64,000 bases of DNA from Saccharopolyspora aridisoli (GTDB taxonomy: Bacteria; Actinomycetota; Actinomycetes; Mycobacteriales; Pseudonocardiaceae): positions 124,001 to 188,000 of the forward strand of contig NZ_SMKV01000006.1 of the NCBI RefSeq assembly GCF_004348445.1, written 5' to 3'. Shown here in pieces: positions 638 to 62,862 of this stretch. Made by a program: the position numbers and the translations under genes. The notes beneath the pieces are model-generated. The model saw only the letters and a list, made by a program, of their open reading frames with translations. It made no database searches and was not told where the DNA came from. The stretch's first letter is position 1; every line of letters starts with the position of its first letter.

Positions 638-713
638 CGGAGTGGGACGGGTTTGCTTGGCAGCGCCGGTAGCGGAGGCTGAGTCCTACACCGGAACAGC
701 GCCTGAGCTAAGG

Positions 714-855
714 GCGTTTTTGAACGCGGCGAAGCCGCTGTCTCAGGTGTGGGACTCAGCTCGCACCGCGGGTTCCTCAACGGCTTCGTGGCGAGCACGC
801 CGCAAGACGTACTCGAGGAGTGATGCGCGGAGTTCACGGAGCCGCTGCGCTTCCC
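714..855 (+). repeat. Dispersed intergenic repeat family 1, copy a
   Basis: A hairpin GCGGCGAAGCCGC (726-738) is followed by GCACCGCGGGTTC, ACGGCTTCG, GCGAGCACGCCGC and CGGAGCCGCT. The same blocks in the same order occur near 11.8, 18.3, 50.4 and, inverted, 62.8 kb. This copy lies between two convergent genes and supplies the last residues and the stop codon (834-836) of the minus-strand glycosylase-like gene. Bases 638-713 hold nothing else recognisable. Confidence 0.7.
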
Positions 856-2123
856 CCTTCGGGGTTTCCGGCACCCTCACCGCCACGCAGAGGAGCTCCC
901 TGATCAGTTCCTAGTTCGGCGTTCAGCGGGCGGATCAGGTCACCCCGTTCGCCGACCACGACGTCGTCGAGTCCGAGCCAGGTCGCCATCTCGCGCAGAG
1001 TGGCGGCCAGCTCAGGCGCTACGGGCGCGGCGTCGCGGCCGGGTTCCAAGAACGCTCCGGGGACCCGGAGCACGCCGGCCGCCCGGTCGGCCTTGAGATC
1101 GACGCGGGCGACGAGCTCACCGTCGAGGAGGAAGGGGAAGACGTAGTAGCCGTACTGCCGCTTGGGCTCCGGCACGTAGATCTCGATGCGGTAGCGGAAG
1201 CCGAAGATGCGCTCGGCACGCGAGCGCTCCCAGATCAGCGGGTCGAACGGGCACAGCAGCGCCCGGCCGGCCACCTCGCGGGGAGCGCGGGCCTCAGCGT
1301 GGCGGTAGGCGGGCTGACGCCATCCCCGCACCACGACCGGTTCGAGCACGCCGCCTTCGACGAGCTCCGCGACCGCCTGCTTCGACTGGTCCGGGGACAG
1401 CCGGTAGTAGTCGCGCAGATCGGTCTCGGTGCCGATGCCCAGGGCCTGGGCGGAGCGCTCCACCAGTCCGCGAACAGCTTCGGAGTCCTCGGGCTCGTGC
1501 GCGAGGACGTCGGCGGGCAGCACGCGTTCCGGCAGGTCGTAGAGCCGCTCGAAACCTCGGCGAGTGCCGGTGGTCAGCTCCCCCATCGCGAACAGCAGCT
1601 CGCAGACCCGCTTGGTGTCGGTGCGGTTCCACCACGGGCCGCGCCCCTGCCGCTCACCACCGCCGAGCTCGCGCTCCAACTGGCCCGCACCGATCGGGCC
1701 GAGTTCCTTGACGGCGTTCAGCACGTCGTTGACCAGCTCGGGGTTCTGCTCCAGCAGCTCGCGAGACCGCTTGCGCCACCCACCGCCGTGCTCGCGCATC
1801 CGCCAGCGCAGCAGCGGCCAGTCCTCGACCGGGATCAGCGACGCCTCGTGCGCCCAGTACTCGACGAGCATCCGGGGCTGCCGGGCGGTGTGCGACCACG
1901 CAGCGGTGTCGACCAGCTCCGCCGGGTAAGCACCGAGCCTGCTGAAAAGCGGCATGTAGTGGGCGCGCACCGCGACGTTGACCGAATCCAGCTGCAACAG
2001 CTTGGTCCGGGACAGGACCCGCTGGAGGTGCCGGCGGGTCACCGCTCCGCGCGGTCGCGGGTCGGCGAAGCCCTGCGCCGCCAGAGCCATTCGCCGTGCC
2101 GTGTCGTTGCTGATGGTCTGCAC
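834..2123 (-). CDS. YcaQ/AlkX-type winged-helix DNA glycosylase (HTH_42 family)
   Basis: A 429-residue protein of the winged-helix HTH_42 family, whose characterised members (E. coli YcaQ/AlkX, Streptomyces AlkZ) are glycosylases that remove bulky alkylated purines and unhook interstrand crosslinks. The YcaQ-like subgroup is described as carrying a Q-hydrophobic-D catalytic motif; here QLD is at residues 44-46 in the block LLQLDSVNVAVRAHYM. Other family landmarks are AHEASLIP, the WWNRTDTKRVCELLF wing region and QYGYYVFPFLLDG near the C terminus. GTG 2123 was chosen because family homology begins there; the frame is open further upstream but overlaps the divergent GNAT promoter. The last ~15 residues (rich in G, S and A) are encoded inside an intergenic repeat, so the native C terminus may have been replaced. 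Substrate is inferred from the family. Confidence 0.82.
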   Translation of the reverse strand: MQTISNDTARRMALAAQGFADPRPRGAVTRRHLQRVLSRTKLLQLDSVNVAVRAHYMPLFSRLGAYPAELVDTAAWSHTARQPRMLVEYWAHEASLIPVEDWPLLRWRMREHGGGWRKRSRELLEQNPELVNDVLNAVKELGPIGAGQLERELGGGERQGRGPWWNRTDTKRVCELLFAMGELTTGTRRGFERLYDLPERVLPADVLAHEPEDSEAVRGLVERSAQALGIGTETDLRDYYRLSPDQSKQAVAELVEGGVLEPVVVRGWRQPAYRHAEARAPREVAGRALLCPFDPLIWERSRAERIFGFRYRIEIYVPEPKRQYGYYVFPFLLDGELVARVDLKADRAAGVLRVPGAFLEPGRDAAPVAPELAATLREMATWLGLDDVVVGERGDLIRPLNAELGTDQGAPLRGGEGAGNPEGGSAAAP

Positions 2124-10563: not shown

Positions 10564-10776
10564 GGTGACTCCCTATCGTCACAACGCTCACGGCAGGAGC
10601 ATCCGGATCGGTGATCCGACAAGGCCGGCCATCGATCGAAGCTCCCGGGACCGTCTCGTGACGACTTGCCCGGCAGCCACTACCGAGGACCGGCGGACGC
10701 CTGCACCCAGTGCTTGCCACCGTGAGCGCTCTATTGAATTGCTGGCGGCGCCTGCGAGGCACCGCCCGGTTCTACG

Positions 10777-11796: not shown

Positions 11797-11820
11797 GCCG
11801 CGAGTATGGCGGCTGCGGCT

Positions 11821-11945
11821 CGTTCTCGAGTGCGGCGGGGCCACTGCTCGAGGTGTGGGACTGCGCCCTACCGCCGCGGGTTCTGAACGGCTCCGCGGCC
11901 AGTGCGCGCGACGGCGTGCATCGTCACGGCGCACGGAGTCCGACT
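11821..11945 (+). repeat. Dispersed intergenic repeat family 1, copy c
   Basis: This divergent copy starts CGTTCTCGAG, keeps a bulged version of the hairpin (11829-11845), then CCGCCGCGGGTTCTGAACGG and ends near GCACGGAGTCCG. It occupies most of the gap between the HTH regulator stop and the thpR start, so it lies in the thpR 5' region on the minus strand. Confidence 0.5.
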
Positions 11946-11978
11946 GGCACCGCTTCGAGCAGGAAGACCGAACAGCCC

Positions 11979-18204: not shown

Positions 18205-18264
18205 GACGCACCTCCTTCTTGCAAGAAAGCTTCGACACCCGCGGTGCTCCGGCGGGTGGGTCCA

Positions 18265-18450
18265 ACGTCGTTCTCGAAAGTGGCGAAGCCACTTCTTCCT
18301 CCGGTGAGCACCTGAGCAGCTCGCACCGCCGGGGCTCTGAGCGGTTTCCTGGCGAGCACGCCGCAGCGCCGATGCCCACCCTTGGCTGAGCGGAACACGC
18401 AAGAGTCCACGGAGCCGCTCAGGTTCCCCGACTCGCACCGCTGCGCAGGG
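18265..18450 (+). repeat. Dispersed intergenic repeat family 1, copy b
   Basis: It contains CGTTCTCGAA, hairpin AGTGGCGAAGCCACT (18279-18293), AGCTCGCACCGCCGGG, CTGAGCGGTT (18337-18346) and the partner AGCCGCTCAG. It sits inside the infB-ylxP-rbfA cluster, directly in front of rbfA, and creates a spurious upstream extension of the rbfA reading frame. Confidence 0.75.
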
Positions 18451-18464
18451 GCATCACCGATGAC

Positions 18465-37849: not shown

Positions 37850-38010
37850 GGGCCGGCACGCAGTGTCCTGACTCCCGGATCGACGTGGTTCCCCCGCCTT
37901 CCAGCTGATGACAGCCGTGGCGATGGGTGGGGACCACTCCCCGGTCACAGTGGCGGGACCGTCCCGGACTCGCACCGGGTTCCTGCACTGTCGGCGACAG
38001 TCATCCTTGC
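37850..38010 (-). promoter_or_regulatory. Cobalamin riboswitch upstream of the Ni/Co transporter operon
   Basis: Read on the minus strand, the conserved elements are CCCGGTGCGAGTCCGGG, the B12-box-associated GCCACTGTGACCGGGGAG, and CCGGGAGTCAGGACACTG at the 3' side. The order and spacing match the AdoCbl riboswitch class. The expression platform would lie between ~37850 and the start codon at 37781. Binding of adenosylcobalamin should lower expression of the import/CbiX operon. Confidence 0.9.
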
Positions 38011-48899: not shown

Positions 48900-49152
48900 A
48901 GAGGTTGCTGCCAGTGACCTGCGTGGCGGTGCAGGTAGCGGAAACCGCACGCTGATCCCGGGGTCCGCGACCGATGCACGGTGCTGCGGCTGTCCTCCCC
49001 AGACGACGTGAGGCCGCCGCGGTGCGAGTTGCTCGGGTGGCCGAAGTGACGAGGCCCAGCGCACGGCCCCGCACGAGGTGGGCAACTTCACCGCTGCAAC
49101 CGGCGTTCGACGCGTGAAGATGGACGAGCGTCCCAGCACTAGGAGCCGCCGC

Positions 49153-50313
49153 ATGCCCACCAGGCCGCCTCTGGTGCTCTCCGCAGCCTCGTTCATCAGC
49201 AGCTTCGACCGGTTCGCCGTGACCCCGATGCTCGTGCTGATCGCGCTGAGCATGCACGTCCCGATGGCCTCGGCGGTCACGGTCGCCAGCGGCTACTTCC
49301 TGGCCTACGGGCTCTCGCAACCGCTGTGGGGAATCCTCTCGGACCGCTTCGGCCGGATCCCGATCATGCGCGCCACGCTGCTCGCGGCGGCGGCCACGGG
49401 CCTGATCTCGACGTTCGCCCCCTCGCTGGCGGTGCTGATCGCGGCGCGGGTCCTGGCTGGTGCGTTCATGGGCGCGGTGGTCCCGACGACGCTGACCTAC
49501 GTCGGCGACACGGTCTGCCAGCAGAAGCGCCAGAGCGCGCTGTCGGACCTGATGGCCGCCCAGGCGGTGGGCACGGCCATGGCGACGGCGGTGGGCGGTG
49601 TGCTGGCTCACTGGCTGGACTGGCGCGTGGTCTTCGCGGTCCCGGCCCTCTGCGCGGCGATCTGCGCGCTGCTGCTGCGCGGCCTCCCGGAACCCGAGCG
49701 AGCGGCGGTCTCGGGCGGCGTGGGTTCCCACATCGGCGGAGTCCTGCGCAACCGGTGGGCGCTGCTGGTGTTCGGCCTGGTCTTCGTGGAGGGCGCGGTG
49801 CTGCTCGGCACCATGACCTTCCTGGCGTCGGCGTTGGTCTCCGAGGGCCTGGACGTCGCGGTGGCGGGCTTGGCCACGGGCGCCTACGGCATGGGCGTGC
49901 TGGTGTTCTCCAGGATCGTCAAGGCCATCAACTCCAAGGTCCCGGTCCCCCGCTTGATCGCCATCGGCGGCACGCAGGTGATCGTCGGCTACGCCCTGGT
50001 CTCCTTGGACACGAACTTGGCCACGGTGATCACCACAGCGCTCCTGCTGGGCGGAGGCTGGTCCTTCATGCACTCCTCCCTGCAGAGCTGGGCCACATCG
50101 GTGGCCCCGGAAGCGAGAGGAACAGCGGTAGCCCTCTTCGCCTGCGCCCTGTTCCTGGGCAGCGCAGCAGCCTCCGCAGCAGCAGGCCCCCTAGCTGACC
50201 ACGGCAACTACACGATCCTGTTCACCACAGCAGGAGCAGTGGCAATCCCCCTGGTAGCCACAGCCACCTGCGCAAGGCACCGCTACCACCAGAAACAACC
50301 AACCCCAGCCTGA
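49153..50313 (+). CDS. MFS transporter (drug:H+ antiporter type)
   Basis: A 386-residue permease with about twelve membrane segments. MFS motif A is seen as YGLSQPLWGILSDRFGRIPI (G-x-L-S-D-R-F-G-R), and the MGAVVPTTLTYVGDTV region resembles motif C. ATG 49153 was chosen because AGGAG lies 8 nt upstream; an earlier in-frame start at 49078 would add a charged N terminus. The last ~70 codons use A-ending synonymous codons far more than the rest. It is divergent from the cob operon. Substrate unknown; a cobinamide or corrinoid role is only a guess from position. Confidence 0.87.
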   Translation: MPTRPPLVLSAASFISSFDRFAVTPMLVLIALSMHVPMASAVTVASGYFLAYGLSQPLWGILSDRFGRIPIMRATLLAAAATGLISTFAPSLAVLIAARVLAGAFMGAVVPTTLTYVGDTVCQQKRQSALSDLMAAQAVGTAMATAVGGVLAHWLDWRVVFAVPALCAAICALLLRGLPEPERAAVSGGVGSHIGGVLRNRWALLVFGLVFVEGAVLLGTMTFLASALVSEGLDVAVAGLATGAYGMGVLVFSRIVKAINSKVPVPRLIAIGGTQVIVGYALVSLDTNLATVITTALLLGGGWSFMHSSLQSWATSVAPEARGTAVALFACALFLGSAAASAAAGPLADHGNYTILFTTAGAVAIPLVATATCARHRYHQKQPTPA

Positions 50314-50314
50314 A

Positions 50315-50470
50315 CCGTCAGGCAAGCGACGAAGTCGCTTCCTCCTTCACCACCCGAGCAGCCGGCACCGCCGCGGGTTCTGAGCGGCTTCGCGGCGAGG
50401 ACGCCGCGACGCCGTGTATCGGCACACATCAGGAGTGGCGCCCGGAGACCATGGAGCCGCTCAGGTTCCG
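50315..50470 (+). repeat. Dispersed intergenic repeat family 1, copy d (best preserved)
   Basis: It begins 2 bp after the MFS stop codon with CGTCAGGCAAGC, then hairpin AAGCGACGAAGTCGCTT (50324-50340), CCGCCGCGGGTT and CTGAGCGGCT (50380-50389), whose exact complement AGCCGCTCAG lies at 50455-50464. The latter encloses a GCGGCGAGGACGCCGC stem. Confidence 0.8.
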
Positions 50471-50519
50471 CCACCCACACCGCCAAGCAACCCAGCCACA
50501 ACAACCACGAAGAAGAAGA

Positions 50520-50562
50520 GCCCCGCGCTCAACCGGCCTGGGGGTCGCTGGGAGCGCGGGGC
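50520..50562 (-). terminator. Terminator after the ChlI/ChlD chelatase gene
   Basis: GCCCCGCGCTC (50520-50530) pairs with GAGCGCGGGGC (50552-50562). On the minus strand it is followed by TCTTCTTCTTC. A second shorter stem (GGTCCACC/GGTGGACT, 50571-50599) lies between it and the gene. Confidence 0.8.
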
Positions 50563-50667
50563 ACTTTGGAGGTCCACCCCTGGGGGTCAGGTGGACTGGT
50601 GGTCACCGTACCAATCCGACCGAAGGGTCTGTACTCACAGGGCTGAATCTCGTGACCAAAACGAGAC

Positions 50668-52695: not shown

Positions 52696-52749
52696 GCCGG
52701 TGTGGTTCCTTCCTCGGGGTGCGGACGCCCCGCTGTCGGGAACAAGGGG

Positions 52750-52885
52750 CCGCAGTGTCCTGACTCCCGGATCGTCACGTCCCTCCGGCCTTCCCAGGTC
52801 ACCCCGGTGGCTCGCGCGGGAGGTCCGCTCCCCGGTCACAGTGGCGCCGACCGTGCCGGACTCGCACCGGCTTCCTGCCAACACC
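52750..52885 (-). promoter_or_regulatory. Cobalamin riboswitch upstream of the ChlI/ChlD-type gene
   Basis: On the minus strand: CCGGTGCGAGTCCGGCACGG, GCCACTGTGACCGGGGAG and CCGGGAGTCAGGACACTG occur in order, as in the other riboswitches of this window. The 3' part ends ~55 nt before ATG 52695. Confidence 0.9.
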
Positions 52886-53067
52886 CCTTGCAAGCGGATT
52901 CACCGACATCGTCCCAGACGTCGATCAAGCACCCAACCTTCCGGCGCCGCAACTCACAGTTCGGAGTTGGCGGTGGTCGTTCCGCGTGGCGGTGCCGGTG
53001 GCAGAACCCGCGGCGGTGCCGAGCTGAGTTCCACACCTGCAACAGCGGCTCACGCCGCGAAGGCGCC

Positions 53068-62449: not shown

Positions 62450-62600
62450 CACGGCGGCAGGAGTTCCTGGCTCCCGGATCCTCGCGGTGTCCCGCCTCCC
62501 AGCCCTGCGCAGGCCGTGGCTGTCGGGTTCCGCTCCCCGGTCACAGTGGCGCGACCGCCCCGGCCTCACACCGGGTTCCTCCACGTCACCGCCGTACTGG
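62450..62600 (-). promoter_or_regulatory. Cobalamin riboswitch upstream of cobN
   Basis: On the minus strand: CCCGGTGTGAGGCCGGGG, GCCACTGTGACCGGGGAG and CCGGGAGCCAGGAACTCCTG. The third riboswitch of the window, with slightly more diverged flanking helices than the other two. Confidence 0.88.
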
Positions 62601-62709
62601 CGCAGCCATCCTATCGACCCCGCGATCACCCACCACCCCACCGACGATTTCGCGAGAAAGATCTCCTCCACCCACTGCGACTCGTCTTGCTCACCGGTGC
62701 AGGGGGAGG

Positions 62710-62855
62710 ACTCGAGCGGCTGCGCGGCTCCTGGCGCCGCTGATGCATGCCGGTGCTCGGCGTCGCGGCGTCCCACCCCCCGAAGCCGCTCAGAACCCCC
62801 CGGCGGTGCCGGTCTCGCCGGTGGTGGAGGAGAGCGGCTCCGCCGCTTGCCTGAC
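62710..62855 (-). repeat. Dispersed intergenic repeat family 1, copy e (inverted)
   Basis: Read on the minus strand it starts CGTCAGGCAAGC, 8 bp after the dehydrogenase stop codon, then AAGCGGCGGAGCCGCT, GGCACCGCCGGGGGGTT, CTGAGCGGCTTCG and GACGCCGCGACGCCG. It thus has the same position relative to the preceding gene's stop codon as copy d. Bases 62601-62709 contain nothing recognisable. Confidence 0.75.
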
Positions 62856-62862
62856 GTGTTGT

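Follow-up and report, generated by a model that had tools for sequence, protein, structure and literature searches.

What is the short, hairpin-bearing sequence that follows directly on the stop codon of an MFS gene in Saccharopolyspora aridisoli, and what keeps it folded? An earlier note on this DNA had described it as one of five intergenic copies that share blocks in a fixed order and a 5' hairpin whose arms change in pairs, and had read it either as a REP/MITE-like element or as an RNA module in 3' UTRs. We believe the family is very probably a non-autonomous miniature transposon, a MITE of the IS5 family.

The window, by which we mean the whole stretch of 64,000 nucleotides that was analysed, was searched with a covariance model, R1, built from 24 copies in the host genome (120 positions, 29 pairs); the copy at 50315 is the only one of the five that is part of this model. 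All five places match R1 (E 1.4e-20 to 0.0011), the one at 11821 weakly, with E 0.10 in the whole-genome search. Extra hits in the window were counted at E<0.01. The copies, with the parts of the one at 50315, are as follows.

714..914, plus strand: element copy, core 763-869, E 4.4e-6; edges approximate
11815..11978, plus strand: degraded element copy, core 11868-11977, E 0.0011
18257..18464, plus strand: element copy, core 18323-18442, E 8.7e-11
48901..49054, minus strand: extra degenerate copy, core 48925-49025, upstream of a cobO/btuR-like gene
50314..50495, plus strand: element copy, 3' edge approximate, directly after the MFS gene stop (TGA, 50311-50313)
50324..50340, plus strand: 5' hairpin of the 50315 copy, AAGCGAC-GAA-GTCGCTT
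50365..50484, plus strand: conserved core of the 50315 copy, R1 match E 1.4e-20 (the copy itself is in the model)
50380..50395, plus strand: 5' arm of stem H1 of the 50315 copy, from the covariation analysis
50449..50464, plus strand: 3' arm of stem H1 of the 50315 copy, from the covariation analysis
52963..53067, minus strand: copy without the central hairpin, core ends 52988-53019
62664..62862, minus strand: element copy, core 62693-62809, E 3.4e-8, adjoining the stop of a gene for a 2-hydroxyacid dehydrogenase

The likeness among the five is looser than had been claimed. The 5' hairpin stands as described at 714, 18265, 50315 and 62855 but is imperfect at 11821, and the shared blocks are mostly approximate: GCACCGCCGCGGGTT is exact in one of the five copies, and CTGAGCGGCT, GCGAGCACGCCGC and AGCCGCTCAG are exact in two of five each. 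The 714 copy has a CAGTTC-CTAG end at 905-914, and a weak inverted match (659-774, minus strand, E 0.0029) overlaps it. An AlkZ-like gene called at 834-2090 on the minus strand has its stop at 834, inside the same copy, so its C-terminus may be derived from the element. The copy at 52988-53019 (minus strand) lacks the central hairpin that would stand between its GGTTC direct repeats, a form that slippage during replication would produce, and this joined pattern has no other exact match in the host genome.

The five copies in the window are a few members of a much larger family of short non-coding mobile elements. A DNA search of the host genome (G000, 6.0 Mb in 83 contigs) with the 50315 copy gave 238 candidates, and all 40 that were scored match. 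The search of this genome and its relatives with a covariance model, which the earlier note had proposed, bears this out: with 150 of 13,594 candidates scored, R1 finds at least 128 host matches at E<1e-3 and at least 143 at E<=1. Under stricter filters, matches at E<=1e-4 occur in 24 of 61 genomes. The element is present in 20 of the 22 genomes of the genus, with at least 50 copies in 17, in 4 of 15 other genomes of the family and in 0 of 24 others of the order. Two relatives that matter below, G003 and G013, have 100 matches and at least 150 matches at E<=1e-3. A 25-base stretch of the core is present in records from Saccharopolyspora endophytica, S. flava, S. ipomoeae and S. rhizosphaerae, and we infer that the whole genus group is Saccharopolyspora. 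The family is not described in the parts available to us of the literature on Saccharopolyspora MITEs, intergenic repeats and insertion sequences and on Streptomyces MITEs. The kind of element is known; the unusual part is a covarying core common to different ends.

That the element is mobile follows from empty and filled alleles at the same sites. Sites in the window were compared with syntenic stretches of four relatives, which do not extend to the copy at 714. At 11815-11978 three of the four show an empty site and the fourth carries an element. All four are empty at 48901-49054, and the copy at 18257-18464 has a counterpart in two of them and is absent from the rest. At 62664-62862 one relative is filled, two are empty and the remaining one is ambiguous. 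The site at 52963-53067 is occupied in a single relative, by a full copy that points the other way, and is empty in the other three. The MFS gene has orthologues in 18 of the 22 genus genomes, and in five of them an element lies directly at the point after the stop, with stems that mostly differ between genomes and match internally. In four relatives the element sequence that fills this point is a different one; a sixth orthologue has a copy further downstream, and 12 more distant ones have no copy within about 1.5 kb of the gene. A wider comparison with S. endophytica (G016), in which 40 gene-end flanks were searched and the loci came from the best 30 of at least 40 matches, gave 29 comparable sites, and at 12 of these at least 209 bp of host sequence stand against no more than 108 bp in S. 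endophytica. Five of the 12 short sites measure 10-19 bp; the rest hold remnants or diverged sequence. At the cleanest empty site (L079 against L148) CTAG is duplicated.

The ends of the unit were analysed in G003, a single-contig genome, on 20 high-scoring copies of its 100. Young copies there form a unit of 231-234 bp with the terminal inverted repeats GTGCCTGTCTTTGAAC. Both repeats are found at no more than 4 mismatches in 15 of the 20, and the flanking triplets are identical in 12 of these 15 testable copies (3 differ) and read TNA in 28 of 30 cases. L267 and L271 have other ends, one of them with CTAG on both sides, around cores that are 3 nt from the nearest copy of the common type. Several element ends in G003 adjoin CCGCTG or AACCTC. 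Copies in the host genome have ends that are different from those of G003 and poorly conserved, GAGCTGTTGAGG in some of them; some are flanked by CTAG and not TNA, and in several the two flanks are unequal. In S. flava, too, ends are poorly conserved around near-identical cores.

The same terminal repeat leads to a partner. Searching G003 with it finds pairs of repeats about 964 bp apart that enclose an open frame of 290 residues. The partner ends, GTGCCTGTCTTTGATC, are nearly the same as the element ends, and all four copies examined are flanked by TGA or TCA. The frame matches PF13340, PF01609 and, at 199.3 bits (cut-off 110), NF033580, and is an intact IS5-family transposase. G003 has nine full copies of it, and the four that were examined with their ends lie in the insertion sequence of about 964 bp. 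The insertion sequence copies L282, L283, L284 and L285 are all nested at the foot of stem H1 of an element, CCGC-TGA-GGTT, and this stem foot (CTGAG) appears to be an insertion hot spot where tandem arrays build up.

The partner transposase has homologues at E<=1e-10 in 11 of the 22 genomes of the genus. The related insertion sequences of S. flava, G006 and G007 are flanked by TNA, with the same triplet on either side in G006 and G007; their ends begin GAG.CTGTT and resemble the GAGCTGTTGAGG ends seen on some host copies. A homologous insertion sequence in G013 has the flanks CTATA/TATAG, not TNA. An inverted-repeat scan of six insertion sequence loci gave no ends at two, L303 of the host genome among them. 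Fragments of IS5-family transposase genes lie at the ends of contigs C2, C3, C8, C13, C15, C17 and C20 of S. flava (G015), as is to be expected where an assembly is broken by identical insertion sequence copies. A search of the host genome with the G003 transposase finds no close homologue and a single match, 29% identical, with an internal stop; a search there by terminal repeat gives 47 hits at no more than 2 mismatches against 161 for a reversed-pattern control. Since the host copies have other ends, CTAG flanks and unequal flanks, we infer rather than observe that an IS5-family partner acts in the host genome.

It is the combination of matching ends, TNA duplications and an IS5-family partner in G003 that argues for an IS5-family MITE. 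Like the IS5-derived MITEs already known, the element has the terminal inverted repeats of a resident insertion sequence and a 3-bp TNA duplication, both of them shown in G003, and it is intergenic and polymorphic between relatives. It differs from them in a folded core, conserved and strongly covarying, some 120 nt long and found with terminal repeats of two or more kinds, and in that no close partner was found in the host assembly. A TNA target marks the IS1031 group of IS5, and the 3-bp target of the element and its partner in G003 matches it; the G013 homologue differs. For this group the part available of one source gives three nucleotides and a single ORF (PMC2516522). IS5-family transposases would move the element in trans. 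A long covarying core that goes with different terminal repeats, near-identical cores whose ends are poorly conserved, and the orientation bias described below all lie outside what plain MITE theory predicts.

Where the copies sit was studied on 78 of the at least 143 host matches, with genes called by a codon-usage script whose starts are approximate. A few of the 78 overlap the end of a gene but no copy is contained in a called one, and the case that the earlier note had named as its refutation, that the copies are remnants of one coding gene, did not occur. By context 28 are between convergent genes, 19 are tandem and sense, 29 are tandem and antisense, and 2 are between divergent genes; in three samples 26-36% of spacer bases belong to spacers between divergent genes. 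Thus 76 of the 78 have at least one neighbouring gene whose 3' end is turned towards them, and most, not all, are near its stop. The stops that adjoin host copies are TAG in 27 of 79 cases, against 50 of the 292 stops called at the same loci, the adjoining ones included.

The placement at stop codons may be explained, in whole or for the most part, by survivorship together with TNA targets. Insertions within genes and promoters would be lost, leaving survivors on the 3' side of genes and often at a stop codon, where a TNA duplication would leave the stop in place. Insertion that seeks out stop codons is unsupported. A stop is no more than 5 nt away from 22% of the non-coding TNA triplets of G003 (234 of 1,066); the script counts 9 of 20 copies at that distance (p = 0.025), and for 7 of the 20 a stop codon is itself the flanking triplet. 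When L267, L269 and L273 are set aside, whose ends match the repeat poorly or rest on a neighbouring repeat, these counts become 6/20 and 4/20. CTAG targets are likewise unsupported as the cause of stop adjacency: the window has 11 CTAG sites where about 170 are expected from base composition, and 1 of the 11 is at a called stop.

The copies are also oriented with respect to replication. With the replication strand assigned from sampled GC skew, 68 of 100 copies in G003 (p 4e-4) and 99 of 148 in G013 (p 5e-5) have the lagging orientation; for G013 the best 150 candidates were scored and two on another contig left out. Merging neighbours gives 61/92 and 94/140. The bias was noticed first in G003, where the best strand split was reached by 3 of 2,000 shuffles, and was then repeated in G013. 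By our estimate gene orientation alone does not yield it.

This bias, with the many copies, the hairpins and the extragenic position, is what could recommend a REP-type element moved as single-stranded DNA by a Y1 transposase of the IS200/RAYT type. We consider that reading scarcely credible, given the TNA duplications and the matching IS5-family partner in G003. Y1 transposase matches occur in 9 of the 22 genus genomes, and PF01797 has no match in eight that are rich in the element, each with at least 59 copies (G000, G001, G002, G003, G004, G008, G013 and G015). The element shares with REP/BIME sequences and their RAYT transposases its many extragenic hairpins; it differs in its target duplication, its DDE-type partner and its length, 231-234 bp in G003 against the 20-40 bp given for REPs in the part available of one source (PMC3733652). 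Of the double name REP/MITE-like, the terminal repeats, target duplication, polymorphism and IS5 partner in a relative uphold the second half, and the first half falls as far as mobilisation by RAYT is concerned.

The paired changes on which the case for a structure was built are real, with covariation far above chance, but they are mostly in long inner stems and not in the hairpin that had been stressed. The core is one long interrupted hairpin of stems H1 (16 pairs), H2 (8) and H3 (5), and the short hairpin 5' of it is separate. For alignment A3, whose 24 rows were aligned without regard to structure, the covariation score reaches 0.314 against 0.156 shuffled, with 0 of 500 shuffles as high and slid structures at 0.117 or less. 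In A5, 80 distinct host-genome rows fitted to the structure, it is 0.386 against 0.173 (0 of 500; slid, 0.090 or less). A scan of all column pairs that kept those with at least 85% standard pairs and mutual information of at least 0.35 puts the pair 39-90 of stem H2 at the top, and 7 of the 12 pairs listed are in H1 or H2.

G.U exceeds A.C in H1 (100:45) and in H2 (45:15, once a pair with A.C in 59 of 77 rows is left out), and in H3 the ratio is 34:44. Because the ratio differs by stem and is near equal overall (179:163), the evidence that one strand folds is mixed. The choice of a strand by folding energy is unsupported, since 41 of 78 host copies favour the plus strand (p 0.73) and 20 S. flava copies show no difference; in G003 17 of 20 favour it, but these copies are near-identical.

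These data bear on whether the element is a functional structured RNA in 3' UTRs, a terminator, stability or regulatory element kept by the host. The strong covariation, the conserved unpaired stretches, the position of 76 of 78 host copies 3' of a neighbour gene and the excess of G.U in H1 all speak for it, and the first two are what one finds in the structured RNAs of Rfam. We nevertheless regard it as improbable. The tandem copies are antisense more often than sense, presence varies between species whose flanks are mostly 90-98% identical, G.U and A.C balance across the whole structure, and neither strand folds better in the host copies. Among the seven most similar core pairs at orthologous sites, 17 changed base pairs are broken against 14 kept. 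Unlike the Rfam families, the element is mobile, stands in both orientations to genes and has no Rfam match: at gathering scores nothing in the whole window matches the element, and for 50200-50600, at E up to 1, matches are solely downstream of it. The claim of an RNA module in 3' UTRs finds no support in the count of 19 sense, 29 antisense and 28 convergent copies. Downstream of the 50315 copy is a G+C-rich hairpin at 50514-50597 that by eye is present downstream of the MFS gene in many members of the genus and has a sub-threshold resemblance to the F6 and 6C RNA models. The window also holds an Actino-pnp RNA at 10624-10694 and three cobalamin riboswitches within 25 kb, at 37861-37985, 52731-52903 and 62462-62580 (minus strand).

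Why, then, would a MITE keep a fold? Cores at the same site can be compared in 19 pairs, 15 between the host and S. endophytica and four at the MFS gene, with L017 and L048 excluded since their cores could not be aligned from end to end. In the seven pairs with at least 0.85 identity, paired positions differ at 10.1% and unpaired ones at 7.5%, and of the changed base pairs 17 are broken, 6 still pair after a single change and 8 after two. In the other 12 the differences are 29.2% and 21.3%, with 55 broken, 28 kept by one change and 55 by two. Resident copies decay, and by our estimate double changes in same-site cores are commoner than chance. This would fit an IS5-family MITE in which many resident copies decay after insertion and the fold is perhaps kept by selection on spreading copies, as folded single-stranded DNA or transcript, and not on each resident copy.

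Our ranking of candidate causes puts selection on the spreading lineage through the folding of single-stranded DNA first, as the likeliest, and we hold it tentatively. Templated repair with gene conversion comes second and effects at the RNA level third, the latter a doubtful cause. In the second the paired changes are mutational: template switching between stems makes them and gene conversion spreads the cores, with no selection for folding. It is compatible with a MITE, and we rate it as possible without being probable. Shared-site cores are 0.73-0.98 identical where the flanks of the same pairs are 92-98% identical, the differences between L008 and L166 are mostly in stems and many are in matched blocks, and near-identical cores occur with different ends within one genome. 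The overall balance of G.T and A.C, expected if both strands count alike, shifts the odds slightly from folding selection toward this reading. Against it stands the excess of G.T over A.C among the intermediates of H1 and H2, 145:60 with the one fixed A.C pair left out, a figure that leans on two pairs (30:0 and 34:0), falls to 81:60 without them, and comes from related copies in non-independent cells. A further step beyond selection on the spreading lineage, which we think rather unlikely, would make the core a separate selfish structured module that is exchanged between transposons with different ends and needs folding, probably as single-stranded DNA at the replication fork, to spread; the mobile lineage, rather than the host, would be under selection for its structure.

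It is important to realize what such a family means for the search for RNAs. Covariation is usually a strong sign of functional RNA, and here it occurs in a mobile element. Because this covarying element stands in both orientations, varies between relatives and is partly decaying, RNA-motif searches in actinobacteria could be misled into taking such mobile families for cis-regulatory RNAs. At the same time the family, with its young and old copies and its empty sites, is a large natural data set on why a mini-transposon keeps a folded core.
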